This document shows positions 3,067 to 23,884 of a DNA stretch of 23,884 bases, in pieces. This DNA comes from a virus, in IMG/VR virus record IMGVR_UViG_3300020215_000137, positions 1 through 23,884 of that record. One strand, written 5' to 3'. The notes below the pieces were generated by a model. The model ran no database searches. It was given only the letters and a program-made list of their open reading frames with translations, and was not told where the DNA came from. Numbering within the stretch: position 1 is the stretch's first letter; every line of letters starts with the position of its first letter. A program made the position numbers and the translations under genes.

Positions 3067-3794
3067 GCAAGGTCGATTTCCGTGCGGTGTCGCCTTACTC
3101 CGACGAACACCTGAACCGGAACATCGAGCACGCGCGGTCTCTGGGCCTGCAGAACGTCGATGAACTGGAGCACAGCGGACCCATAGCTGTCATTGGCGGC
3201 GGCTTGTCCGTCATGGGGTATGTCGAAACCCTGCGACGTTGGGACGGCAATCTGCTGGCGATTAACGGTGCGTGGCGCTGGTGCCGAGAAAATGGCATCG
3301 ACGCCGTGTTCTTCTCGATTGATCCGAACCCGATAGTGGCGGAGATGGCGCGTGGCGCAGATAAGGCCATCCTTGCCGAGCGCTGCGATCCTGCTGCTTT
3401 CAGTTCAGCATCAACGACGTATCTCTACAGCGGAACGCTTGGCGGCTGTTCTAGTGCTGGGGCCGCTATCATTGCCGGGCTCAAGTCAGGCCACACGCAA
3501 GTAACGCTGTTCGGCTGCGAAGCCAATTACCAACAGCAACGTTCGCATGCCTACGGGAATGTGAAATCCCAGCATGAGCTGATCGTGAAGTGCTGCGGGA
3601 TGCACTTTCTGACCACCCCAACCCTGGTCATGCAGGCTAGGGAATTGGCGATCATGATTCTCGAAGCACAAGGGATCGTGCGTGAGACCTCGGGCGGGTT
3701 CCTGCGGGCGATGGTCAACGCCAACTGTGAGTATGACATCGTCGCCTGCACCCCTGGGTTTGAGGCGACACTAGAGCCAGCCGATGCTGCTTGA
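3063..3794 (+). CDS. MptE-like (DUF115) Rossmann-fold protein
   Basis: The protein has 243 residues and its ATG overlaps the hydroxylase stop. Residues 39-90 look like the first Rossmann unit of the MptE-like/DUF115 family: GPIAVIGGGLSVMGYVETL, then LLAINGAWRW, then DAVFFSIDPNP. A second unit has SGTLGGCSSAGAAIIAGL and VTLFGCEANY (about 123-156), matching the nucleotide-sugar or pterin-binding half of the fold. Known relatives are archaeal 6-hydroxymethylpterin diphosphokinase (MptE) and the Maf flagellin-glycosylation proteins; phage members are generally unassigned. It sits between a hydroxylase and TerL, overlapping TerL by 11 bases. A role in transferring a group to a virion or host component is only an inference. 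Confidence 0.65.
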   Translation: MSKVDFRAVSPYSDEHLNRNIEHARSLGLQNVDELEHSGPIAVIGGGLSVMGYVETLRRWDGNLLAINGAWRWCRENGIDAVFFSIDPNPIVAEMARGADKAILAERCDPAAFSSASTTYLYSGTLGGCSSAGAAIIAGLKSGHTQVTLFGCEANYQQQRSHAYGNVKSQHELIVKCCGMHFLTTPTLVMQARELAIMILEAQGIVRETSGGFLRAMVNANCEYDIVACTPGFEATLEPADAA

Positions 3795-5337
3795 TGAACT
3801 TCTCGCAAAGCTCGGCACAATGCCGGCGGCGGAACGGGCGGAGTTGGATAGGGCATATCTCCAGGAAGCGCCGAAGTGGCTCCCGAACGTGGGGCCGCAG
3901 ACGCTGGCGTATCTTTGTCCCGCTGACCTGCTGTTCTATGGCGGTCAGGGCGGGGGTGGTAAATCGGACCTTGGCCTTGGTCTCGCTTTCACCCAGCACA
4001 GGCGCTCACTGCTACTGCGGCGCAAGTATGTGGACCTGAATGCTCTTGTAGAGCGGGCGTTGGAGATCCATGGTTCTCGCGAAGGGTTCAACGGACAACC
4101 GCCCCCGAAGCTAAGAACGGCAGACAACAGGCTCCTGCACTTCGGCGCCAATCAACACCTAGGTGACGAGCAGAGCTGGCAGGGTCAGCCGTATGACCTG
4201 AAGTTCTTCGATGAGGTCGTTCAGTTCCTCGAAGCGCAGGTTCGGTTTCATCTGGGTTGGATACGCTCGACGGACGAAGGCCAGCGTTGTCGTGCTGTCT
4301 TGGGGAGCAATCCTCCCCTGGACGCAAACGGGCAATGGGTCGTGGGGATGTTCCGGCCGTGGTTGGATCTGACACACCCCAATCCCGCCAAGCACGGGGA
4401 GTTGAGGTGGTTCGTCACCGACCCTGACGGCAAGGACATGGAAGTCCCGGGACCGGGTCCGGTTCAGCTGGACGGCAAGACCCTGCTTCCACAGTCCAGG
4501 ACGTTCATTCCGGCCAAGCTGTCGGACAATCCGTTCCTGGTGAACACGAACTACCAGGCGCAATTGGATGCCCTCCCGGAGCCGCTACGATCGGCTGTGA
4601 GGGACGGCAACTTCATGGCCGCCCGCAAGGACGCCGAGAACCAGGTCATCCCCACGGCATGGGTAATCGCCGCTCAAGCTAGGTGGAGACCGGACGGCTG
4701 GAAGGACTACACCCAAACCGCAATAGGGTATGACCCAGCCGGTGGGGGGAAGGACGAAGCGACGATCGCCCTCCGTCATGGTGGGTGGTACGACAGGATC
4801 ATTTCCGTTCAGGGCGACAAAACCTTGGACGGCGCTGCGATGGCGGCGAAGGTTCTTGAGGTCCGAAGGGACAACGCTCCCGTTGTTGTTGACGTTGGCG
4901 GCGGATATGCCGGCGCGTCGATTGAGCGGTTCAAGGACAACGGTGTCATTCATACGCGGTTCAGCGGGGCAGGAGCTTCAACGGCTCGGGCCAAGCAATC
5001 GAACCTGCAGTTCGCGAACAAGCGCGCCGAGGCATGGTGGAAGTTCCGCGAGGCACTTGATCCACAGCAACAGGGTGGATCGGCGATTGAGCTTCCAGAT
5101 GATCCCCAGTTGAGAGCAGACCTCACCACCCCGACATGGGAGCTGAAGTCAGGCAAGATCCTCGTGGAGAGCAAGGAAGACATCCGGGAACGGTTGGGTC
5201 GTTCGCCGGATCGCGGTGACGCTGTCATTATGGCGCTCAGCGAAGGGGACGCCGCTCGTCGCAAGGAATTGTCACGCGCAACACTCGGCCAGGCGCCAAA
5301 GGTCGTCATGGGCCGAGCTCTAACCAGGAGACGATAG
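3784..5337 (+). CDS. terL: Terminase large subunit (packaging ATPase/nuclease)
   Basis: The protein has 517 residues, a usual size for TerL. The ATPase domain shows a Walker A loop GGQGGGGKSD at 53-62 (Lys60), Walker B LKFFDE at 139-144 (Asp143, Glu144) and the coupling motif VLGSNPP at 172-178. The C-terminal RNase H-like nuclease has acidic residues in the expected places: IGYDPAGGGKDEA (Asp317), VVVDVGGGYAG (Asp370) and SPDRGDAVIMA (Asp476/Asp479). It cuts concatemeric DNA and drives it through the portal. The ATG overlaps the DUF115 gene. No small terminase subunit was recognised in this window; in T7 the small subunit also lies away from the portal. Terminase stands ahead of the portal, unlike T7, where it lies at the far end of the late region. 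Confidence 0.95.
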   Translation: MLLDELLAKLGTMPAAERAELDRAYLQEAPKWLPNVGPQTLAYLCPADLLFYGGQGGGGKSDLGLGLAFTQHRRSLLLRRKYVDLNALVERALEIHGSREGFNGQPPPKLRTADNRLLHFGANQHLGDEQSWQGQPYDLKFFDEVVQFLEAQVRFHLGWIRSTDEGQRCRAVLGSNPPLDANGQWVVGMFRPWLDLTHPNPAKHGELRWFVTDPDGKDMEVPGPGPVQLDGKTLLPQSRTFIPAKLSDNPFLVNTNYQAQLDALPEPLRSAVRDGNFMAARKDAENQVIPTAWVIAAQARWRPDGWKDYTQTAIGYDPAGGGKDEATIALRHGGWYDRIISVQGDKTLDGAAMAAKVLEVRRDNAPVVVDVGGGYAGASIERFKDNGVIHTRFSGAGASTARAKQSNLQFANKRAEAWWKFREALDPQQQGGSAIELPDDPQLRADLTTPTWELKSGKILVESKEDIRERLGRSPDRGDAVIMALSEGDAARRKELSRATLGQAPKVVMGRALTRRR

Positions 5338-5541: not shown

Positions 5542-5632
5542 ATCAGCCCCTGTTACTCAGTATGTCGGCAGTAAGAAGCGCGCGACGATGAAGAAGCGCA
5601 CGGCCAAGAAGGTGAAAACCATTGCCTACTGA
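5534..5632 (+). CDS. Possible 32-residue strongly basic peptide bridging to portal
   Basis: A TTG-initiated frame (TTGGCTGA overlap with the previous stop) encodes about 32 residues: AESAPVTQYVGSKKRATMK followed by KRTAKKVKTIAY. It fills the otherwise empty 80 bases before the portal and overlaps the portal start by 11 bases. Every junction in this block is a stop/start overlap, so this ORF would complete the pattern. The ribosome site is weak and the start codon is rare, and an internal ATG at 5588 is an alternative. The basic, Lys-rich composition would suit nucleic-acid or capsid contact. It could also be chance translation of a leader. Confidence 0.4.
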   Translation: MAESAPVTQYVGSKKRATMKKRTAKKVKTIAY

Positions 5633-7292
5633 CCTGACTTGGTCTGATCGCCACACTGCGCTGCTGGGTCTGTCCGACAAGCTCTATGCCGCTCGTTCGC
5701 CTCTGGTCAGCTTCTGGGCGGAGGCTGCTGCCAATTTCTTCCCGGAAAGAAATACGTTCTTTACCAACGATATCGGCAAGGATTTCGCTGGAGACCTATC
5801 CACCTCATTTCCTCTGTTGGTGCGTCGTTCCCTCGCTGACTCATTCTCCTCCATGCTGAGGGTGGATGATTGGTTCAGCATGAAGGTCAACATCGGGGAT
5901 GACAAACTAGACTCTGCCGGTAAGGCGTTCCTTGAGTTCGCCACAGAAGTGCAGCGCAACGCGATGTATGACCGCGATGCGATGTTCACCCGGTCGATGA
6001 AACAGTGCGACCATGATTATGCGACCTTTGGTCAGGGTGTGCTGTCGATCGAAGCGAATCTCAATACCGCTACCCTGCTTTACCGCAACTGGCACCTCCG
6101 CGATGTTGCGTGGTGCGTAAATGCCCATGGAAAGATCGATTTCGTCTCCCGCAAGTGGGAGGACTGCACCGCTAAGGATGCCGTGAAGTTCTTCCCGAAG
6201 ACCGTCCACGCCAATGTTCGGAAGATGGTGACGGAGAACAACGGCAAGCGGATGTATGACCATGTCAAGATCCGCCACATTGTTCTGCGGTCGGAGGATT
6301 ACGACGGCCCATACGGTGGGCCTAAGGCGAAGTTCCCCTATGTGGGATTGTTCCTCGACCCGGTGAACAAGGTTGTTTTGGAGGAGATGCCCCGCAGGAC
6401 TCCGTACTACGTCATTCCCCGTTGGGTTCTGCTTTCGGATTCACAATACGCCTATTCCCCGGCTGTAACCTGCGCTCTTCCGGATGCGCGTGTTCTCCAG
6501 GCGATGACCTACACGCTTCTGGAGGCGGCGGAGAAGGCGACGAATCCCCCGATGGTCGCGGTGATGGATGCGATCCGGTCCAACATCGACATCATGCCGG
6601 GCGGTGTTACCGCTGTCGAAGCGGAATACGATGAGCGACTTGGTGAGGTTCTCCGTCCTCTGACTCAGGATTATCGCGGTCTTCCAACCGGCATTCAGAT
6701 GTCGGTGGATCAGAAGGCGCAGATTGAGGCTGCGTTCTACATCAACCGTCTGTCGATGCCCCCGATTACCCATGAGATGACGGCGGAGGAAGCAAGGCTC
6801 CGGGTCAACGACTGGATGCGCGATGCCCGTGCATTGTTCGAACCCGCCGAGCTTGAATACAACGCCCTCGTTTGTGAAGTCACGACTGAAGAGCTCTTGG
6901 CGGTAAATGCCTTCGGTCCTGCGGAGAACATCCCGGAATCCCTGAGGGGGAGGGATGTACAGTTCAAGTTCAAGTCCCCGTTGATGGAGGCCAAGGACTC
7001 CGAACTGGCGCGTACCTTCCTGGATGCCAAGGCGATGTTGCTTGAAGGTGCCCAGCTCGATCCTGCCGCGATGAAGATGCTCAACACCCAGAGCGCTCTC
7101 CGAGATGCACTGAAGGGCCGCTCTGTCCCGACCGATTGGGTCAAGGACGAGCGCGCGATGGAAGAGATCAACGCCCAGGCGGCTGCGGAACAGGCTGCGG
7201 CAAAACAACTGCAGGCGGTTACTGCGGGTGGTGTGGCGGCCGAACAGGCTGGCCGTGCTGGTGTGGCGATCAAGGAAGCGCAGGCGGCATGA
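5622..7292 (+). CDS. Head-tail connector (portal) protein, T7 gp8-like
   Basis: The protein has 556 residues, close to T7 gp8 (536). The N-terminus has the pattern of the T7-type connector family: RSPLVSFWAEAAANFFPER (25-43), then VRRSLADSFSSML and VDDWFSMKV (81-89). It continues with a long alpha/beta body, MPPITHEMTAEEARLRVN, and a C-terminal helical, Ala/Gln-rich end (AAAEQAAAKQLQAV). The portal is the 12-subunit ring at one capsid vertex through which DNA enters and leaves and to which tubular protein A binds. The start is TTG at 5622 with AAGGTG at 5609-5614 and 7 bases spacing; no better ATG lies nearby, since the conserved N-terminal region begins at once. The stop overlaps the next start (ATGA). 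Confidence 0.92.
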   Translation: MPTDLTWSDRHTALLGLSDKLYAARSPLVSFWAEAAANFFPERNTFFTNDIGKDFAGDLSTSFPLLVRRSLADSFSSMLRVDDWFSMKVNIGDDKLDSAGKAFLEFATEVQRNAMYDRDAMFTRSMKQCDHDYATFGQGVLSIEANLNTATLLYRNWHLRDVAWCVNAHGKIDFVSRKWEDCTAKDAVKFFPKTVHANVRKMVTENNGKRMYDHVKIRHIVLRSEDYDGPYGGPKAKFPYVGLFLDPVNKVVLEEMPRRTPYYVIPRWVLLSDSQYAYSPAVTCALPDARVLQAMTYTLLEAAEKATNPPMVAVMDAIRSNIDIMPGGVTAVEAEYDERLGEVLRPLTQDYRGLPTGIQMSVDQKAQIEAAFYINRLSMPPITHEMTAEEARLRVNDWMRDARALFEPAELEYNALVCEVTTEELLAVNAFGPAENIPESLRGRDVQFKFKSPLMEAKDSELARTFLDAKAMLLEGAQLDPAAMKMLNTQSALRDALKGRSVPTDWVKDERAMEEINAQAAAEQAAAKQLQAVTAGGVAAEQAGRAGVAIKEAQAA

Positions 7293-7895: not shown

Positions 7896-8206
7896 AGAAA
7901 CCAACCAAGGAGACCACCTACGTCAAGACCACCATGCTCCCGGTGGACTTTCATGGGCTAACGCCCACCGATGTGGCTGCCATTAAGGCAGTCATGCAGG
8001 GCGGCGCTGACTCTGTGCAGCAGGTCGCAGCGATCAAAGCGATCGTCGATAAAATTTCCGGCTACTACCACTTGAGCTACCGCCCCGACGAACTCGGTGG
8101 CAGCAGAGCATCCGATTTCCTGGAGGGTCGGCGCTTCGTGGGTAAGTGGATACTGAACCTCCAGACCATGCCAACCAAACTCTTCGAGAAGGATTCAGCA
8201 CAGTGA
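7892..8206 (+). CDS. Bbp19-like small phage protein
   Basis: The protein has 104 residues, with a GTG start overlapping the preceding stop (GTGA). The stretch VAAIKAIVDKISGYYHLSY (45-63) followed, after a Gly/Ser loop, by FLEGRRFVGKWILNL (76-90) resembles the Bbp19-like family of short helical phage proteins. In those, an N-terminal 'vfnTpaG..vL' helix is followed by an 'eGrR..v..i' helix. In Bordetella phage BPP-1, Bbp19 lies between portal and capsid genes, and the same position is found here. The role is unknown; procapsid assembly is likely from location. The family call is by eye and moderate. Confidence 0.6.
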   Translation: MKKPTKETTYVKTTMLPVDFHGLTPTDVAAIKAVMQGGADSVQQVAAIKAIVDKISGYYHLSYRPDELGGSRASDFLEGRRFVGKWILNLQTMPTKLFEKDSAQ

Positions 8207-9153
8207 CCGAGCAAGCGGCCGGCTCGCAGGCGACTGCGACAACCCAGGCCACCACGACGGAAACGACTGCGACCCAAACGCAGGCTTCCACCACGCAACA
8301 GACTGGTACGCAGCAGGCCGGTCAGACCCAACAGACTCAGCAGCGCGGCACCACTGTCGAGACACAGCAGTTCCCCGCGAACTGGCGTGAGGTATGGGCC
8401 GGCGGCGATGAGAAGGCCCTGAGCCGACTGCAGCGCTTCACCTCTCCGGATGCGGTGTTCAAATCATACCGCGAGATGGAAGCGCGGTTCTCGAATGCTA
8501 AGTTCAAGACCGAACTTCCAGCTAATGCCACTCCCGAACAGATTGCGGAATACCGCCGCGAGAACGGCATTCCCGAAGAGCCAACCAAGTATTACGACGG
8601 CATCAAGAAGGTGACGATTGGCGAGGAAGACCGCCCCATCGTCAACAAGTTCCTTGAGCGCATGCACGCCGCCAATGCTACGACTCCGGTCGTGGAAGCT
8701 GCCCTGGATGCCTACTACGCCATCCAGGAAGAACAGCAGGCCGCGGATATCGACGCTCAGAAGCTCTACAAGACCGAACAGGAAGATGTCCTGCGGCAGA
8801 AGTGGGGGCCGGACTTCCGGTCCAACATCAACGCCATCCGCAACACGTTCGCCTCAATGCCAGAGGAGCTGAGAGAGGGCATCGAGAGCTGGACGGATCA
8901 CCAAGGGAACCTGCTGCTGAACAACGCGGCGTTCCTGGAGTGGGCCGGGGGGCTATCCCTTCAGCTCAACCCGATGTCCACCACTGTGCCCGCTGGCAAT
9001 GGTGATGCGATCAAGAACGTCGAAGCCCGGTTGGCCGAGTTCAAGGCCATGCGCCAGAAGAACATCGACGCTTGGTCGAAGAACGAAGCCGCCCAAGCCG
9101 AGGAACGGAAGCTGCTTGAGTGGCAGGCCCAGCAGCAGAGGCGGGCGGGTTAG
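8203..9153 (+). CDS. Capsid assembly scaffolding protein
   Basis: The frame is open upstream, but the GTG at 8203 overlaps the previous stop (GTGA) and has AAGGA 8 bases ahead, giving 316 residues, very near T7 gp9 (307). Residues 1-50 are extremely Thr/Gln/Ala rich and probably disordered (TTETTATQTQASTTQQTGTQ). From about 60 on the protein is helical and charged: NWREVWAGGDEKALSRLQRF, AVFKSYREMEARFSN, then YRRENGIPEEPTKYYDG, a pattern common to podovirus scaffolds. The C-terminus is a Lys/Gln-rich helix (ERKLLEWQAQQQRRAG), the usual capsid-contact end. It sits upstream of the major capsid protein as expected. It would assemble inside the procapsid and leave on DNA entry. Its stop overlaps the convergent membrane-protein gene by 4 bases. 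Confidence 0.85.
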   Translation: MTEQAAGSQATATTQATTTETTATQTQASTTQQTGTQQAGQTQQTQQRGTTVETQQFPANWREVWAGGDEKALSRLQRFTSPDAVFKSYREMEARFSNAKFKTELPANATPEQIAEYRRENGIPEEPTKYYDGIKKVTIGEEDRPIVNKFLERMHAANATTPVVEAALDAYYAIQEEQQAADIDAQKLYKTEQEDVLRQKWGPDFRSNINAIRNTFASMPEELREGIESWTDHQGNLLLNNAAFLEWAGGLSLQLNPMSTTVPAGNGDAIKNVEARLAEFKAMRQKNIDAWSKNEAAQAEERKLLEWQAQQQRRAG

Positions 9154-9452
9154 GACAGCAACCAGTACAAGCACACCAGCAGGGCGGCTGCGGCTATGAA
9201 TACCGCCCACATGGCGGCCCATTGACCGCCGAATAGCAGACCTCGTTTAACGCTCTCTTTTGCGGTCTCGCCCTTGCTGCGGGTTCCAAGCCCGATGCCG
9301 ATGAAGTTGGCAAGAAGGAATCCGACGAAAGCGAAGTAGGGGAAAGCCTCGCTCCGCTTGAAGTGAGGCCCGATCAGGAACATGAGGGCGATGAACGCTC
9401 CGAGCGTTCCGAACCACCAGATCACTATGGCTGGGTAATCGTGCTGCCCCAA
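9150..9452 (-). CDS. Three-TM small membrane protein on the minus strand
   Basis: The frame gives up to 100 residues from a TTG at 9452; a GTG nine codons in is an alternative, and neither has a strong ribosome site. It would be reached by translational coupling from the lipoprotein, whose end it overlaps by 28 bases. Three hydrophobic spans are clear: about 8-28 (IVIWWFGTLGAFIALMFLIG), 37-56 (FPYFAFVGFLLANFIGIGLG) and 72-98 (ending AAAALLVCLYWLLS). A charged loop KGETAKESVKR separates the second and third. Plus-strand frames across this stretch are poor. Function is not recognised. A holin or a superinfection-exclusion protein are possibilities; no motif decides. Confidence 0.7.
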   Translation of the reverse strand: MGQHDYPAIVIWWFGTLGAFIALMFLIGPHFKRSEAFPYFAFVGFLLANFIGIGLGTRSKGETAKESVKRGLLFGGQWAAMWAVFIAAAALLVCLYWLLS

Positions 9453-9574
9453 GCAGGGCGGCCAGTGCTCGCCATACCACCGCCCTTGCCGTGGTTCTGG
9501 TGCTTGCTAGCGGCTTCTGCAGCACAGCCCGCCAGCAAGGCGGCGATGGCTGCGATGATCAGTGACCTGCGCAT
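9425..9574 (-). CDS. Small lipoprotein (49 residues) on the minus strand
   Basis: The frame can be extended to 9649, but the ATG at 9574 has a strong GGAGG site 5 bases upstream and gives a textbook lipoprotein signal: MRRSLIIAAIAALLAGC, with lipobox L14-A15-G16-C17. After cleavage and lipidation at Cys17 the mature peptide is about 33 residues, starting CAAEAASKHQNHGKGGG and ending STGRPAWGSTITQP. It would be anchored in the inner or outer membrane (Ala18 at +2, no Asp). It overlaps the start of the three-TM gene. An Rz1 role is possible but unlikely: there is no proline-rich body and no overlapping Rz-type coiled coil. The motif ASTGRP near its end also occurs near the start of the plus-strand gene at 9667. 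Confidence 0.7.
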   Translation of the reverse strand: MRRSLIIAAIAALLAGCAAEAASKHQNHGKGGGMASTGRPAWGSTITQP

Positions 9575-9639
9575 TTGACCCTCCATGACCTTGGACGTGG
9601 CCCCGTTAACGTCTGTGGTCAAGCTGGACTCAATCACGA

Positions 9640-9648
9640 ATTGTAACA
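9640..9648 (-). promoter_or_regulatory. Candidate extended -10 promoter for the minus-strand pair
   Basis: On the minus strand these bases read TGTTACAAT, which is a TGn plus TACAAT extended -10 element, one base from the sigma-70 consensus. No good -35 hexamer lies 16-18 bases upstream, as is usual for extended -10 promoters. Transcription would begin near 9633 and leave a leader of about 60 bases before the lipoprotein ATG. This supports independent host-driven expression of the insert. A single short match by eye, so only suggestive. Confidence 0.35.
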
Positions 9649-9666
9649 TTCTTCAAGGAGATCGAC

Positions 9667-10161
9667 ATGGCCTCAGTTAGGGGTGGTGGCGGCGCTAGCA
9701 CGGGCAGGCCCGACTATGGCCGTGAACGCCCAATGGATAGGGTTGACCGGGAGCGCCGCTCTGGCGGCATGTCCCCATCCCTCCTGGACAGCAAGTATCC
9801 CGGCGCGAAGAAGAAAAAGGACCGCCAGTATGAGCTGAACGCCAGCAATCTGGCGAAGGTGGGCACCATTCTGGGCGGCCTCGTTGGCGGTCCTGGCGTG
9901 ACTGCGGCCAAACTCGGCCTGGATGCGCTGACCGGCGATCTCAGCATGGAGAGCGCGCTAGATCCGTTCTCCGGTCGTATGGCCGATGTTCCAAGCGTCG
10001 GCGCTGGCTACGCGGACAGCCGCGAGAACGACCAGGCCGCCACTGTCACCGGGCTCACGGCCGCGAAAAAGAAGAAGACCACGAAGCCGAGCAACCCGCT
10101 TGGCTCGGTCGGGACCATCCTTTCAGGCGCGGGCGGATCGCTCGTCGCCGGAGGTCTCTAA
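9667..10161 (+). CDS. Gly/Lys-rich hypothetical virion protein before the capsid gene
   Basis: The protein has 164 residues; the ATG has AAGGAG 6 bases upstream (9655-9660). The N-terminus is disordered and Gly/Arg rich (GGGGASTGRPDYGRERPMDR). The body contains a repeated unit: KKKK at 48-51 followed by VGTILGGLVGG at 65-75, then again KKKK at 134-137 followed by VGTILSGAGG at 148-157. Each pairs a basic patch with a Gly-rich hydrophobic segment that could insert into a membrane or pack in the capsid. No family is recognised. It lies after the minus-strand insert and before the capsid leader, so a minor head component is likely by position only. Confidence 0.65.
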   Translation: MASVRGGGGASTGRPDYGRERPMDRVDRERRSGGMSPSLLDSKYPGAKKKKDRQYELNASNLAKVGTILGGLVGGPGVTAAKLGLDALTGDLSMESALDPFSGRMADVPSVGAGYADSRENDQAATVTGLTAAKKKKTTKPSNPLGSVGTILSGAGGSLVAGGL

Positions 10162-10367: not shown

Positions 10368-11216
10368 ATGGCTGAATCAGCCGCAATTACCCAATACCGC
10401 GAAGAGGTCGTGGATGGGTTCGAACAGCGCCAGTCGTTGCTCCGCGATGCGGTGACGACTGAAGCGGTCATCAAGGGCAATACCGCCACTTTCCTGATCG
10501 CTGACAGCGGTAGTGCGACCGCGACCACCCGAGGCTTGAACGGCCTCATCCCGGCGCGAGCCGACTCTCTGACCCAGACCAGCGCGACTCTCGAAGAGTG
10601 GCATGACCTGGTGAAGAAGACCAACTTCAACATTTTCATCTCGCAGGGCAACCAGCGAGCGATCATGCAGAAGTCCACGATGGGCACGATCAATCGCAAG
10701 ATCGATCAGCTCATCATCACCCAGCTCGACACCGCCACCACCACGACTGGCGGCGCGGTTACGGCCTCTCTCAGCCTCGTGCTGAAGGCCAAGACCATCC
10801 TGGGCGTCAACGAAGTTCCGTTCGACGGAAACATCTGGGGTCTGATCAGCCCGGCTTTCGAAGCCTATCTGTTGCAGACTTCGGAGTTCTCCTCGGCGGA
10901 CTACGTTACGCGCAAGCCGATGGAAGGTGGCACTGCCTGGAGCGACCAGCCAGGCTTCTACCGCTGGCTCGGCGTCAACTTCATCGTTCATCCGAACGTG
11001 ACCGGCGTCGGCACTTCTTCCGAGAAGTGCTACCTGTTCCACAAGTCGGCGATCGGCCACGCGGCTGATATCGCCGGCATGGACGTGAACCTCGGTTACG
11101 ACGGTGAGCAGGCATACTCCTGGTGCCGTGTTTCCATGCACATGGGCTCCAAGCTGCTGCAGAACAGCGGCGTGGTGCAGATGCTGCATGACGGCAGCGG
11201 CTTCGCGGCTTCGTAA
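10368..11216 (+). CDS. Major capsid protein
   Basis: The ATG at 10368 gives 282 residues; an in-frame GTG at 10359 lies inside the ribosome-site hairpin and is less likely. The sequence begins MAESAAITQYREEVVDGFEQ. A helix, a long glycine-poor strand region (SATLEEWHDLVKKTNFNIFI) and a spine-helix-like segment (STMGTINRKIDQLIITQLDT) follow. Then come conserved-looking IWGLISPAFEAYLLQTSEF and FYRWLGVNFIVHPNVTG, and a Gly-rich end (HMGSKLLQNSGVVQMLHDGS). Size, position after the scaffold and this pattern match the HK97-fold capsid proteins of podoviruses. The HK97 fold is from family knowledge, not visible directly. A small capsid-associated gene follows 21 bases later with a strong GGAGG site. 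Confidence 0.85.
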   Translation: MAESAAITQYREEVVDGFEQRQSLLRDAVTTEAVIKGNTATFLIADSGSATATTRGLNGLIPARADSLTQTSATLEEWHDLVKKTNFNIFISQGNQRAIMQKSTMGTINRKIDQLIITQLDTATTTTGGAVTASLSLVLKAKTILGVNEVPFDGNIWGLISPAFEAYLLQTSEFSSADYVTRKPMEGGTAWSDQPGFYRWLGVNFIVHPNVTGVGTSSEKCYLFHKSAIGHAADIAGMDVNLGYDGEQAYSWCRVSMHMGSKLLQNSGVVQMLHDGSGFAAS

Positions 11217-12722: not shown

Positions 12723-15700
12723 TGCCGAAGCAGTCGGTTTCGCTGAATACATTTAACAGAGGCCGCGTTTCAAACCTAGCGCTCGCGCGTACCGACATCG
12801 ACCGCATCGCGATGTCGGCGGAGACGCAGACCAACTACGTCCCACGGGTTCTTGGGTCGATGATGCTTCGACCGGGGTTGAAATATATCGACTCAACACT
12901 CTCTGACAATCAGGCCCATCATCTGCCGTTCGTATTCTCGACAGACGATCAGGCGCTGATCGAGCTGACGAACGAATCCATGCGGGTGCGGGTCAATGAG
13001 ACAGTTATCTCGCGCTCGGCCGTATCTACTACGATGCGCGGCGGTGACTTCTCCGCCGACGTAACTAATTTCAACAAGCAGACCGATCTTGCTGCATTTC
13101 CAGCGATCGGCAACGAAGTGGCTTTCAGTCCAGACGGGACTATTCTGGCGGTTGCCCACAACAACGGCAGCAGCCGCACGGTTACGTGCTACTCGGTTTC
13201 CGGAACCACTCTTACCGCACTTACAAATCCAACGGGCGGCAGTACCACGGCCAATGGTCTTTCGGTGGCCTTCTCCCCCGCCGGGGATGTTCTTGTCGTT
13301 GGTAATGATAGCGCTTCTGGTTGGGATGCATGGTCGATTAGTGGCACTGGGGCGAGCGCCACCTTCAGCATTCTGACCACCCCAGCGCTCAATCCAGGCG
13401 ATGCCGTCAATGGCGTGGAATTTTCACCGGATGGGCAGTTCCTTGCCCTGGCACATGCCGTTAGTCCATTTGTCAGCATCTATCAGATTAGCGGTAGCGG
13501 AGCATCAACGAGCTTCACGCTTCTCTCCAATCCAGCGACCCTTCCTGCGGGCACTGGAAATGGTGTGGGTTGGTCGTATGACAGCAGGTTTCTGGCCGTG
13601 GCGCATACGACGACACCGTTTGTTACCATCTATGAAGTCAACGGCACTACGTTCACAAAACTAAGTGACCCTGGCACGCTACCGAACGCCAACGGCAACG
13701 GTGTGACGTTCAGCAGGGACGGCAACTATATGGCCGTTGCTCACGGCACGTCTCGCTTCATTACCATTTATTCTATCTCCGGGACAACGTTCACCAAGGT
13801 AACCGATCCGGCCACACTGCCTACTGGCGGTGCGTTCGATTGTGCTTTCAGCTCCGATAACCAGTTCTTGGCCGTGGGGCACGATGTCTCGCCATTCATA
13901 TCCATCTATCGAAATGTCTCTGGCACTTGGACCAAACAGTCCAATCCAGCAACACTTCCTGATGACGACTGTCAGGGAGTAGCATTCTCTCCAAACAACA
14001 ACCTGCTGTTCACGACAGGGCCGACCAGTCCATTCCATACGTTCTATCAAGCCTATCAGTGGCTAGACATGGATGGGAGCGGGGCGAGCAGCACGTATTC
14101 GTCCGGCGGCGGGACTTACGAGACGGCATTTACGCAGACCATAACGGGCGCATCTCCGGTCGCGGCTGGCGCGAACGGTCTGAACGTTCGCAACGTGATT
14201 GATGGGTCTCTTCTGACCCGAACCGGAAACAAAGTTAAGCTGACATTCAAGTCGGCAACCAGCGGTTCGCAGAACTTTATCATCGACAAGTGCTATATCG
14301 GCAAGCAAGCGTCGAGCGGCGATGCTTACGATTTTGCTTCTGCCCCCACTCAGGTCACGTTCAATGGCGGATCAGCCGGGTTCACCATCTCGAATGGCGG
14401 CAATACGCTCACCAGCGATGAGATCGTGTTTGATTTCGACGGAAGCGACATCATTGTGTCGTTTCACACCGTCAGCAACACTGGCGAAGGATTTTCTGTA
14501 AAGACCGCCGCATCTAGTGCGATGCAGGCGTATTACAAGAGTGCCTCTGACGACAGCGGTACGGTGAATGCTTCCGGCTATTCCGATATGAGCCGTGACC
14601 TGGCTGGCTTGACGAAGATCGAAGCTCTGGAGGCCACTGACGGCGGTGCCGGCCTGTTCTTCGTCGGCACGCTCTACAATGAGGCCAAGCGCGTCCAAGC
14701 TGTTTCGATTCTGAATGCCGACAAGAACGATGAACACGCACTCAGGATCACGGTCGATCAGGGCAAGATAATGCTCCGGGTCGGGTCTGAATACGGTGAG
14801 GAAGACCTGGTCGGTGAGACAACTCTTGGGGTTGGTACGCACTCTCTCGCATTTACCCCGACGACCAATCTGTTCTTTGTTCAGTTCTCATCGAACACCG
14901 AATATTCATCGATCCTGTCGAGCTGCCAGATCGAGGGTTCGGGAGATATGACTCTCCCAACGGTCTGGGGAACGTCGGATCTGGATTTCATCAACTACGC
15001 TCAATCTGGCGATATCGTCTATGTCGCCTGCAAGGACAACCCAAGATACAAGATCGAGCGCCGGGCAACACGTTCGTGGTCGATCGTCAAATATCAACCG
15101 GAAGATGGGCCGTTCAGGACACTGAACACCTCTCTGATCACCCTGACGCCATCTGCCCTGTCCGGTGATATTACTCTGACCGCCAGTCGTGACTTGTTCC
15201 GCGAAACCCATGTTGGGGCGCTGTTCAAGATCAGGTCCGCGGGCCAACAGACATCCGACAGTTTCAACGGCGCCAATCAGTTCTCGGCAAATAACATCCG
15301 GGTGACGGGCGTCGATAACGCCCGAGCGATTTCAATTACTCGTTCAGGAACCTGGTCAGCCACAATCACGCTTCAGCGTTCGCTCTCTGAACCCGGTAAC
15401 TGGACCGACGCCGTCGAGTTCACCAGCAACGGCACGTCCACCTATACAGACGATCTTGATAACCAGATCGTCTATTACCGGATCGGAATTAAAACTGGAG
15501 ACTACACCTCTGGCACCGCCACAGTGGTGATGGAGTATGCCTCTGGCGGCATTGTTGGTGTTGCGCGTGTAACAGCTTTCACCGATCGCCAGAATGTTGA
15601 CGCCATTGTCCTGACGCGGTTCGGTTCGACCGATGCGTCGGAAAACTGGAATGAGGAGGTCTGGTCGGACTTCCGCGGCCATCCGTCTGCTGTAGCAATT

Positions 15701-16969
15701 TATGAAGGTCGATTGGGTTGGGCCGGCAAGGACCGCCTTACCCTGTCCGTTTCGGACGCTTATGAGAGCTTTGACGAAGAGACGGAAGGGGACTCAGGTC
15801 CGATCAACCGCACGATCGGTGAAGGCCCGGTCGATACGATCAATTGGCTTGTCCCTTCCAAAACGCTCATCATGGGCGGTGAGGGCGCGGAGTTCTCTGT
15901 CGGAACCACGGCGTTTGACGAAGTCCTCACTCCGTCGAACTACAACAACGATCCTGTTACGAACATCGGTTCGGCTCCTGTTGCGGCAATAAAGATCGAC
16001 AAGGAAGTGATCTTCGCTGCTCGTACACGGACGAAGGTCTACCAACTTTCATACCAGTCGGACATTTACAATTACACCACTGCTGACCTCACCCGTCTCA
16101 TCCCGGAGATGTGCGAGGACGGGATTGTCCGGATCGAATACCAGAGATACCCGGACACCAGGCTTCATTGTGTCCTGGAGGATGGAACGGTTGCGCTGCT
16201 GATTTTTGAGCGCGAAGAGGATGTTGTCTGCTGGGTCGATATCGAGACGGATGGGTTGATTGAGGATGTGGTAATTCTCCCCGCTGATGACGGGGTGGAA
16301 GAGGACAAGGTCTATTACGTTGTCAATCGCACCATCAACGGATCAACCAAACGATACCTCGAGAAGTGGGCGCTGGAATCCGAATGTGTTGGCGGGACGC
16401 TGAACAAGCAGGCGGATTCGTTCAAGATATTCACCAATGACCCAGCGTCAGCGACGGTCACAGGTCTTTCCCATCTTGAAGGCGAAAGCGTTGTGGTCTG
16501 GGCGGACGGGAAGTGTCTGGATGACTCCAATGGAGACATCGCGACTTTCACCGTCTCCTCGGGCCAAATCTCGCTGACCAATGACGGATCAGCTTACACC
16601 GCGACTACGGGCATTGTCGGTCTCGCCTATCGGGCGCGGTTCAAATCAACCAAGCTCGCTTATGCGGCAGGTGGCGGGTCTGCTCTGAACCGGAAGAAGA
16701 AGATCACTCGATTGGGTCTGATCCTCGCCTACGCTCATGCGAAGGGCATTAAGTTTGGCGACTCTTTCGACTCTGACAAGATGCGCCAGATGCCCTCCAT
16801 GGAGAATGGACAGGCGGTTGATGAGGATACCGTTCACACCCATTACGATGAGCCGCTGACTTCTCCGATCGGAGGATGGGATACGGATTCACGTCTTTGT
16901 CTGGAAAGCAACGCCCCCCGTCCGTGTACCGTTCTCGCGGCAACGGTTGAAGTTGAAACGAATGGCTAG
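12722..16969 (+). CDS. Tail tubular protein B-like nozzle protein with inserted beta-propeller
   Basis: The frame is open from 12662, but the ATG at 12722 overlaps the previous stop and starts at the conserved end: SLNTFNRGRVSNLALARTD, then ETQTNYVPRVLGSMMLRPGL, typical of podovirus nozzle/stabilisation proteins. The product has 1415 residues, far longer than T7 gp12 (794). Residues about 125-447 are seven WD40-like blades. Residues about 455-620 look like a beta-sandwich. The C-terminal half returns to the nozzle pattern: DFRGHPSAVAIYEGRLGWAG, NRTIGEGPVDTINWLVPSK, then KKKITRLGLILAYAHAKGI near 1322 and a YDEPLTS end. It should form the hexameric tail nozzle that controls DNA release. The added propeller may contact the host surface or fibres (inference). 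Confidence 0.85.
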   Translation: MPKQSVSLNTFNRGRVSNLALARTDIDRIAMSAETQTNYVPRVLGSMMLRPGLKYIDSTLSDNQAHHLPFVFSTDDQALIELTNESMRVRVNETVISRSAVSTTMRGGDFSADVTNFNKQTDLAAFPAIGNEVAFSPDGTILAVAHNNGSSRTVTCYSVSGTTLTALTNPTGGSTTANGLSVAFSPAGDVLVVGNDSASGWDAWSISGTGASATFSILTTPALNPGDAVNGVEFSPDGQFLALAHAVSPFVSIYQISGSGASTSFTLLSNPATLPAGTGNGVGWSYDSRFLAVAHTTTPFVTIYEVNGTTFTKLSDPGTLPNANGNGVTFSRDGNYMAVAHGTSRFITIYSISGTTFTKVTDPATLPTGGAFDCAFSSDNQFLAVGHDVSPFISIYRNVSGTWTKQSNPATLPDDDCQGVAFSPNNNLLFTTGPTSPFHTFYQAYQWLDMDGSGASSTYSSGGGTYETAFTQTITGASPVAAGANGLNVRNVIDGSLLTRTGNKVKLTFKSATSGSQNFIIDKCYIGKQASSGDAYDFASAPTQVTFNGGSAGFTISNGGNTLTSDEIVFDFDGSDIIVSFHTVSNTGEGFSVKTAASSAMQAYYKSASDDSGTVNASGYSDMSRDLAGLTKIEALEATDGGAGLFFVGTLYNEAKRVQAVSILNADKNDEHALRITVDQGKIMLRVGSEYGEEDLVGETTLGVGTHSLAFTPTTNLFFVQFSSNTEYSSILSSCQIEGSGDMTLPTVWGTSDLDFINYAQSGDIVYVACKDNPRYKIERRATRSWSIVKYQPEDGPFRTLNTSLITLTPSALSGDITLTASRDLFRETHVGALFKIRSAGQQTSDSFNGANQFSANNIRVTGVDNARAISITRSGTWSATITLQRSLSEPGNWTDAVEFTSNGTSTYTDDLDNQIVYYRIGIKTGDYTSGTATVVMEYASGGIVGVARVTAFTDRQNVDAIVLTRFGSTDASENWNEEVWSDFRGHPSAVAIYEGRLGWAGKDRLTLSVSDAYESFDEETEGDSGPINRTIGEGPVDTINWLVPSKTLIMGGEGAEFSVGTTAFDEVLTPSNYNNDPVTNIGSAPVAAIKIDKEVIFAARTRTKVYQLSYQSDIYNYTTADLTRLIPEMCEDGIVRIEYQRYPDTRLHCVLEDGTVALLIFEREEDVVCWVDIETDGLIEDVVILPADDGVEEDKVYYVVNRTINGSTKRYLEKWALESECVGGTLNKQADSFKIFTNDPASATVTGLSHLEGESVVVWADGKCLDDSNGDIATFTVSSGQISLTNDGSAYTATTGIVGLAYRARFKSTKLAYAAGGGSALNRKKKITRLGLILAYAHAKGIKFGDSFDSDKMRQMPSMENGQAVDEDTVHTHYDEPLTSPIGGWDTDSRLCLESNAPRPCTVLAATVEVETNG
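13094..14062 (+). repeat. Seven-unit repeat encoding a beta-propeller in the nozzle gene
   Basis: Units of about 45-50 codons recur. Each has an 'xxVAFSPDG..LAVAH' strand pair, 'SPFVSIY' and 'NPATLP' spaced 45-47 codons apart in the best copies: N/DPxTLP occurs at about 13529, 13670, 13805 and 13943, and PFVSIY-type strings occur in units 3-6. Units 1, 2 and 7 are diverged, as would be expected of the ends. Seven copies would close one complete propeller. Confidence 0.7.
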
Positions 16970-22918: not shown

Positions 22919-23293
22919 ATGGCTTCCACCGTTACAGACCGCCTCGCCTCCGGTTCAGGGGTGGCGTTCAAAGCCCCATGCCGTGTCGCAACCACGGCCA
23001 ACATCACTCTCTCAGGAGAGCAGACGATCGACGGTGTTTCGGTTGTTGCTGGCGATCGTGTGTTGGTGCGCAGCCAGACATCTGGCGTGGACAACGGTAT
23101 TTACATCTGTCGAGCTTCCGCATGGGAAAGAGCGCCGGATTGGGATGGTGTCGATGATGTTGTGACCGGGACGCTGGTCTTTATCACCGCCGGTTCAACC
23201 CTTGCCCTCAAGCTCTATCGCGTCACTACCACCGGAACCATCACCCCAGGAACCACGTCCGTTGCGTTCACGGCTGGGACGACTCTGTCGTGA
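22919..23293 (+). CDS. Orphan tail-fibre N-terminal domain-like protein
   Basis: The protein has 124 residues with AGGAG 7 bases before the ATG. The sequence KAPCRVATTANITLSGEQTI, then DGVSVVAGDRVLVRSQTSG and VDNGIYICRASAWERAPDWD, is the repeat-like domain that begins or lies within many phage tail fibres, where it usually continues into a long shaft. Here it stops after one copy with GTTSVAFTAGTTLS. It could be an adaptor that plugs into the nozzle and carries other spikes, or a virion decoration. Its 3' end overlaps the minus-strand gene by 26 bases. Confidence 0.75.
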   Translation: MASTVTDRLASGSGVAFKAPCRVATTANITLSGEQTIDGVSVVAGDRVLVRSQTSGVDNGIYICRASAWERAPDWDGVDDVVTGTLVFITAGSTLALKLYRVTTTGTITPGTTSVAFTAGTTLS

Positions 23294-23435
23294 ACAGAGA
23301 ATCAAGCGTCCGCCATTCAACCCCGTCCTTGGTGGCGCACAGGCCGACATCGGGGATGAACTCAACGCGGTACCCAAGACGCTCGGCTTCTTCCTTGGCC
23401 CGTCTTTCTTCCTCTGTCAGATCGAGGTTGTCCAT
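23268..23435 (-). CDS. Small acidic hypothetical protein (55 residues), minus strand
   Basis: The minus-strand frame reads MDNLDLTEEERRAKEEAERL, then GYRVEFIPDVGLCATKDGVE and WRTLDSLFTTESSQP. It begins with an amphipathic helix and continues as a likely beta hairpin, a sensible small protein. Plus-strand frames through the same bases are Ser/Arg/Pro rich and look like shadows. GGAAG lies 7 bases before the ATG. The ATG (complement of 23433-23435) shares two bases with the plus-strand ATG at 23434, so the two genes diverge head to head with overlapping starts. The 3' end overlaps the fibre-domain gene. Function is unknown; no homologue recognised. Confidence 0.6.
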   Translation of the reverse strand: MDNLDLTEEERRAKEEAERLGYRVEFIPDVGLCATKDGVEWRTLDSLFTTESSQP

Positions 23436-23733
23436 GCCGAAACTTCCACTAATGGCGGTAGCCCTGTCAACCCTGCTCTCCGCCCCGGCGTGGGGGCAGG
23501 ACTGTCAACCAGTGGCTGACATGAAGGAATGGTTGGCCACCAAACACCAGGAAACGCAGATCGGCAGCGGCATATCGCTGTTGGACCGCGCGATGGTCGT
23601 TTTGTTCGCCAAGCCAGATGGCTCGACATTCTCAGTAATCAAGGTGAGTCCACAGGGAATTGCCTGCATCGTTGAGGCGGGTGAGGACTGGCAAGCAATT
23701 GTGCCGGAACCTGATCAGGGGACCGGGCTATGA
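23434..23733 (+). CDS. Secreted two-cysteine small protein next to holin
   Basis: The protein has 99 residues from the ATG at 23434, with GAGG 6 bases upstream; the longer frame from 23290 is rejected because that part encodes the minus-strand gene. It has a signal peptide (LPLMAVALSTLLSAPAWG, likely cut near Gly21), then QDCQPVADMKEWLATKHQE with Cys24, FAKPDGSTFSVIKVSPQG and ACIVEAGEDWQAIV with Cys78. The two cysteines would form a disulfide in the periplasm. I associate this layout (DC...W/L..KY.E...G, then P.G..C.V..G..W) with a small alphaproteobacterial periplasmic family of unknown function. The stop overlaps the holin-like start (ATGA), suggesting a place in the lysis cassette. Confidence 0.7.
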   Translation: MPKLPLMAVALSTLLSAPAWGQDCQPVADMKEWLATKHQETQIGSGISLLDRAMVVLFAKPDGSTFSVIKVSPQGIACIVEAGEDWQAIVPEPDQGTGL

Positions 23734-23884
23734 CCATCCCTATGCAGAGAGCCGCTGAGGTCGCTGTCGGCGTTGGTTCCGGCGGCACTGGCGTAGCGGT
23801 GTGGATGGGCTGGATACAAGGGACGGCAGCCACTGTCGCAGCGGTAATCGGCGCTGTGATCGCCTGCATCACTCTCTACCGGAT
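23730..23884 (+). CDS. Holin-like membrane protein, 3'-truncated by the window edge
   Basis: Fifty-one codons are visible. The start overlaps the preceding stop (ATGA). A polar start (MTIPMQRAAEVAVG) is followed by a weak Gly-rich hydrophobic stretch (VGVGSGGTGVAVWMGWI) and then a clear membrane span (TAATVAAVIGAVIACITLYR). Two short spans close together, small size and location after the tail genes suit a holin, which would open the inner membrane to release or activate the endolysin. The rest of the protein and any endolysin lie beyond the window. Confidence 0.55.
   Translation, partial: MTIPMQRAAEVAVGVGSGGTGVAVWMGWIQGTAATVAAVIGAVIACITLYR

Follow-up and report, generated by a model that had tools for sequence, protein, structure and literature searches.

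The analyzed window is the full IMG/VR record IMGVR_UViG_3300020215_000137 (23,884 bases), and it contains the late gene set of a podovirus-type phage. The plus strand carries all likely genes except a strand-switched block in the head region (Table 1) and a doubtful short ORF at 23268-23435. The latter encodes 55 residues, beginning with MDNLDLTEEERRAKEE, and has an exported-protein ORF (23434-23733) as its head-to-head neighbor; no family match was found. The block occupies 425 bp (9150-9574) inside the 513-nt gap between the scaffold-like gene and g9667, which agrees with the roughly 430 bases of switched coding strand given in the original prediction.

Table 1 Coordinates of the block, its signals and the surrounding late genes in the window.
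Feature	Position	Strand	Remarks
Terminase	3784-5337	+	
Portal	5622-7292	+	Head-tail_con, E 1e-43
Flanking scaffold-like gene	8203-9153	+	phrog_3742
Tail-to-tail overlap TTAG, 4 nt	9150..9153	.	three-TM stop TAA and scaffold stop TAG
Three-TM protein gene	9150..9452	-	hydropathy and model helices
Lipoprotein gene, 49-residue precursor	9425..9574	-	ATG, Shine-Dalgarno, lipobox, LPAM_1
Lipoprotein copy of shared peptide, KGGGMASTGRPAWG	9446..9487	-	C-terminal half of mature lipoprotein
Shine-Dalgarno GGAGGG of lipoprotein gene	9579..9584	-	sequence; ends 4 nt before ATG
Extended -10 promoter-like element TGTTACAAT	9640..9648	-	no -35 box found
Flanking gene g9667, 164 residues	9667-10161	+	separates block from capsid gene; in L009 its homologue adjoins scaffold
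g9667 copy of shared peptide, RGGGGASTGRPDYG	9679..9720	+	residues 5-18 of g9667 protein
Capsid gene	10368-11216	+	Phage_capsid_2, E 2e-29
Tail and internal virion proteins	up to 22910	+	

The upstream gene of the block runs from an ATG at 9574 to a TAG at 9427-9425, and its precursor reads MRRSLIIAAIAALLAG followed by CAAEAASKHQNHGKGGGMASTGRPAWGSTITQP. The N-terminus has a charged start, then a hydrophobic stretch and then the lipobox LAGC at residues 14-17, i.e., the signal peptide II with lipobox that characterizes exclusion lipoproteins such as Llp, Cor and Rtp45. Pfam LPAM_1 scored 19.8 bits, just below its cut-off of 20. Lipidation is predicted at Cys17, leaving a mature part of 33 residues, and sorting to the outer membrane is expected from the alanine at +2. 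Matches to the Cor family phrog_1119 (E 0.13) and to a spanin (E 0.22) covered residues 1-20 only and the signal peptide only, respectively.

The second ORF can start at TTG 9452 (100 residues) or at GTG 9425 (91 residues), the GTG being the more likely start. The first base of this GTG is also the last base of the lipoprotein stop (TAGTG), the overlap amounting to 1-28 nt depending on the start, and translation of the two genes is probably coupled through this stop/start arrangement. A -1 frameshift joining both ORFs was rejected, as by eye the overlap is devoid of a slippery heptamer and the TAGTG overlap is simpler. In a single-sequence AlphaFold model (mean pLDDT 71) the protein forms helices at residues 6-30, 33-56 and 64-99.

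The lipoprotein start and g9667 are 92 bp apart, and this leader contains the extended -10 element, predicted for this strand beforehand and indeed present, and, on the other strand, the Shine-Dalgarno sequence of g9667 itself. The window contains the loose pattern TGNTANAAT two times where 0.73 would be expected, so its presence on the right strand of the 92-bp leader has a chance of about 1 in 1000, for a pattern picked post hoc. A sigma-70 promoter with a -35 box was not found for the block. There is no terminator at its end either; the nearest minus-strand sites, at 9108 and 9079, are inside the scaffold gene, and the count of terminator-like sites equals the shuffle mean. GC content is about 0.60-0.62 within and around the block and 0.583 over the window, with no compositional difference between block and surroundings.

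No dinucleotide shuffle of the 513-bp gap (0 of 3000 in each case) produced a three-helix ORF of 90 residues or an ORF with a lipobox. Minus-strand tiles of 513 bp from relatives (n = 2581) contained a three-TM ORF in four cases and a lipobox ORF in two; none combined a lipobox ORF with a Shine-Dalgarno sequence, and none held a lipobox and a three-TM ORF together. The lipobox lipoprotein and overlapping three-TM protein of the original prediction are thus both present and above chance in shuffles as well as in relative tiles. Using a codon score model trained on the plus-strand genes, we found both frames to be the best of six at their own sites. The three-TM frame scored only narrowly above the in-register antisense frame, and the codon score by itself would not prove that it is coding.

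Neither protein could be assigned to a family. Comparison of both ORFs with 150 fetched loci gave chance-level matches only (E up to 1), and a Pfam DUF3796 match (E 0.024) fell below the cut-off and was rejected. For the three-TM protein, there was no PHROG or Pfam match above cut-off, no relative in viral_contigs, no homologue in 45 whole virus records and nothing useful by tblastn against phage and plasmid collections. Against 50 relative records or genomes and 754 genomes of two proteobacterial classes it gave two partial matches, both within 400-residue proteins and judged to be chance. Its model matched nothing in BFVD and PDB at E <1, a structure search being uninformative for a three-helix bundle. 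For the lipoprotein, tblastn against phages gave no match at E 10, and no homologue was found in the relatives or the phage collection, the two sets that its homologue search covered.

Capsid and terminase searches provided 136 viral loci and 14 loci from bacterial genomes. The closest relative with a matching local layout, L009, carries terminase, portal, scaffold, g9667 homologue and capsid in order, with identities of 58-60%, 53%, 42%, 46-49% and 66-67%, respectively; searches with the g9667 and scaffold proteins found none closer. In L009 the scaffold stop (4343-4345) is separated from the next start (4360) by 14 nt compared with 513 nt in the window, so the block was either inserted relative to L009 or lost in L009. 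The proposed check for the block in close relatives therefore finds it missing from a colinear relative. A tyrosine integrase is encoded in 12 of 28 records of the phage group, including that of L009, and some relatives sit in long bacterial contigs, which indicates that the group includes temperate members. In the large tail protein (12725-16969, compared with L158 3-2888), the first 965 residues are 80% identical to those of L009 and the C-terminal part about 55%, a sign of mosaic exchange within this gene.

The scaffold-capsid interval is a cargo slot. Among 102 distinct intervals 61 are shorter than 350 bp, 26 measure 350-799 bp and 15 at least 800 bp, and small basic proteins are found among the occupants, as are HNH/AP2 and LAGLIDADG endonucleases and exported proteins. 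Since other relatives hold endonucleases here, the interval evidently tolerates cargo. An insert does interrupt the scaffold-to-capsid order in the window, as had been claimed, but the order is not strictly contiguous across the group: 41 of the 102 intervals reach at least 350 bp, many of them with small genes inside, and in the window the plus-strand g9667 also separates the block from the capsid gene. Endonuclease or lookalike ORFs were seen in L021 (4003-4803), L062 (4284-4793), L060 (1514-2323), L043 (4168-4980) and L054 (4159-4980). A credible minus-strand exported gene was found in only two of the 102 intervals, that of the window and that of L005. The L005 gene (4368-4745) encodes 125 residues with a signal peptide, has a Shine-Dalgarno sequence and, like the block in the window, shares 4 nt (4368-4371) with the stop of the plus-strand gene before it; its product weakly resembles Rap1a (E 0.005, below cut-off).

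The lipoprotein and the g9667 protein have a peptide of 14 residues in common, 10 of them identical, with the pattern GGGxASTGRPxxG. The match scores 54, compared with maxima of 41 in 2000 shuffles of the mature lipoprotein and 50 in 5000 double shuffles; since both sequences are rich in glycine, the margin is genuine but of limited size. The score is the top one among all 406 protein pairs of the window (next 42), and in a six-frame scan of window and relatives (2.86 million positions) the next best peptide site scores 40. Different codons are used at 6 of the 10 identical residues and no inverted repeat was detected between the two copies at the DNA level, so that the likeness resides at the protein level. 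This argues that both frames are translated and, for the lipoprotein frame, supports its translation. A degenerate DNA pattern of the peptide had no match in viral_contigs, and the peptide is missing from the g9667 homologue of L009. In several relatives (L010, L011, L012, L015, L019, L020, L028, L070 and L074) the first small protein encoded downstream of scaffold has a loosely similar motif, GS..YTG..P; these small proteins are poorly conserved and frequently show an RTPLS-like closing motif. Both motifs are possible docking motifs of head proteins.

We consider the block very probably a real accessory cassette. That it is such a cassette and in addition serves superinfection exclusion is, as a joint claim, a tentative proposal somewhat short of an even chance. 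According to this proposal, a two-gene moron cassette separates the scaffold-like gene from the gene that follows it in the head region. A putative minus-strand promoter at the extended -10 element would produce a short two-gene message from about position 9633 leftwards, and the stop/start overlap would couple translation of the two proteins. The lipoprotein would be lipidated and sent to the outer membrane, and the three-TM protein inserted in the inner membrane. Acting together, they may change the cell envelope during infection or lysogeny, most likely so as to exclude competing phages. The original description of a moron expressed on its own holds for the anatomy, given the L009 layout, the block's own ribosome binding site, the promoter-like element and the parallel in L005; its own transcription is predicted only. 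Exclusion is our first choice because small phage exclusion lipoproteins are documented and the group includes temperate phages. A role in exclusion or in the envelope is plausible from the protein type only, and since the searches above found no homologue of either protein any function rests on that type. We know of no exclusion lipoprotein with a three-TM partner; as head-module position and membrane partner are unlike the known cases, we do not file the block in the exclusion-lipoprotein family. Both proteins are orphans in a variable slot, and their role is an unproven guess.

The same anatomy, i.e., the chance tests, the 14-nt gap of L009 and the interval survey, would equally be expected of a moron cassette that brings the lysogen or infected cell another envelope benefit (stress, permeability or competition with neighboring bacteria) and does not serve phage exclusion. 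In its favor, the L005 cargo weakly resembles Rap1a, an exported immunity-protein family and not an exclusion protein, and the lipoprotein precursor is similar in length to colicin-release and entericidin lipoproteins. However, Pfam, NCBIfam and PADLOC gave no match to such a family outside the signal peptide, and we regard this possibility as unlikely but worth keeping in view. A different doubt concerns expression itself. If the block were spacer DNA or a decayed remnant, its frames being leftovers or chance, then the absence of homologues and of a terminator, the weak start codons of the second ORF and its modest codon score close to the antisense frame would all be accounted for. The chance tests, the strong Shine-Dalgarno sequence and lipobox, the protein-level peptide common to the neighboring protein and the exact filling of the gap by the two frames, from the scaffold stop to the short leader region, speak against it and make it improbable.

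Lysis, mentioned as an option in the original prediction, would cast the three-TM protein as a class I holin and the lipoprotein as an outer-membrane spanin subunit or lysis lipoprotein. The length and three modeled helices of the former fit a class I holin such as lambda S, and spanin pairs include small lipoproteins. Yet L009 encodes a lysozyme (PF00959, E 4e-41) and an Rz-like spanin (E 2e-10) beyond its g22919 homologue, where the late genes end, and in the window the matching end contains an exported ORF and an ORF with one helix (23434-23884). In addition there is no holin or spanin family match, and the mature lipoprotein is not rich in proline. With the lysis genes of L009 situated in another place, this option is disfavored and we hold it to be highly unlikely.

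The shared peptide is the sole feature that could raise the block above the ordinary. The lipoprotein might bear a copy of a g9667 docking peptide and so be displayed by the infected or lysogenic cell as a decoy that captures the partner of the head protein, bringing about exclusion or head tethering by self-mimicry, an idea that we treat as a long shot. If the peptide is functional, the block would allow mimicry of a virion component by a phage lipoprotein to be tested; if it is not, the block is one more orphan envelope cassette. The scaffold-capsid interval of this little-studied, partly temperate podovirus-type group is a cargo slot that twice hosts minus-strand exported proteins.

Among known systems, the exclusion lipoproteins offer the comparison on which the proposed role draws. 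Closing of phage receptors from the periplasmic side by small lipoproteins is established: Llp of phage T5 closes FhuA (PMC9586334), and Rtp45, of about 6 kDa, binds LptDE (PMC12685063). Like these and the Cor proteins of the T1/phi80 type, the block encodes a small phage lipoprotein with a lipobox and an expected outer-membrane location. However, it has no similarity to them beyond the signal peptide, and its mature part is shorter than Rtp45. In T5 and T1-like phages the exclusion lipoprotein genes adjoin receptor-binding or tail-tip genes (PMC9586334), whereas the block lies in the head module, away from a receptor-binding gene, and has a three-TM companion.

With class I holins the membrane protein shares about 100 residues and three TM helices, and with two-component spanins the block has in common a small lipoprotein whose reading frame overlaps another; it differs from both in lying outside the lysis module and in having no family match. 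The overlap is moreover an end overlap of 1-28 nt and not an embedded o-spanin gene. As in phage morons, the block separates two genes that adjoin each other in the nearest relative, is on the opposite strand and has its own ribosome binding site, a promoter-like element and cargo unrelated to assembly. It differs in having no detected terminator or compositional shift, both of which are typical of morons but not obligatory. The nearest parallel within the group is the exported gene of L005. It is a single gene of unrelated sequence, its signal peptide has no lipobox, and it was inserted after a g9667-like gene whereas the block precedes g9667; the two nevertheless share the scaffold-capsid interval, the strand, a Shine-Dalgarno sequence, an export signal and the 4-nt overlap with the upstream stop.
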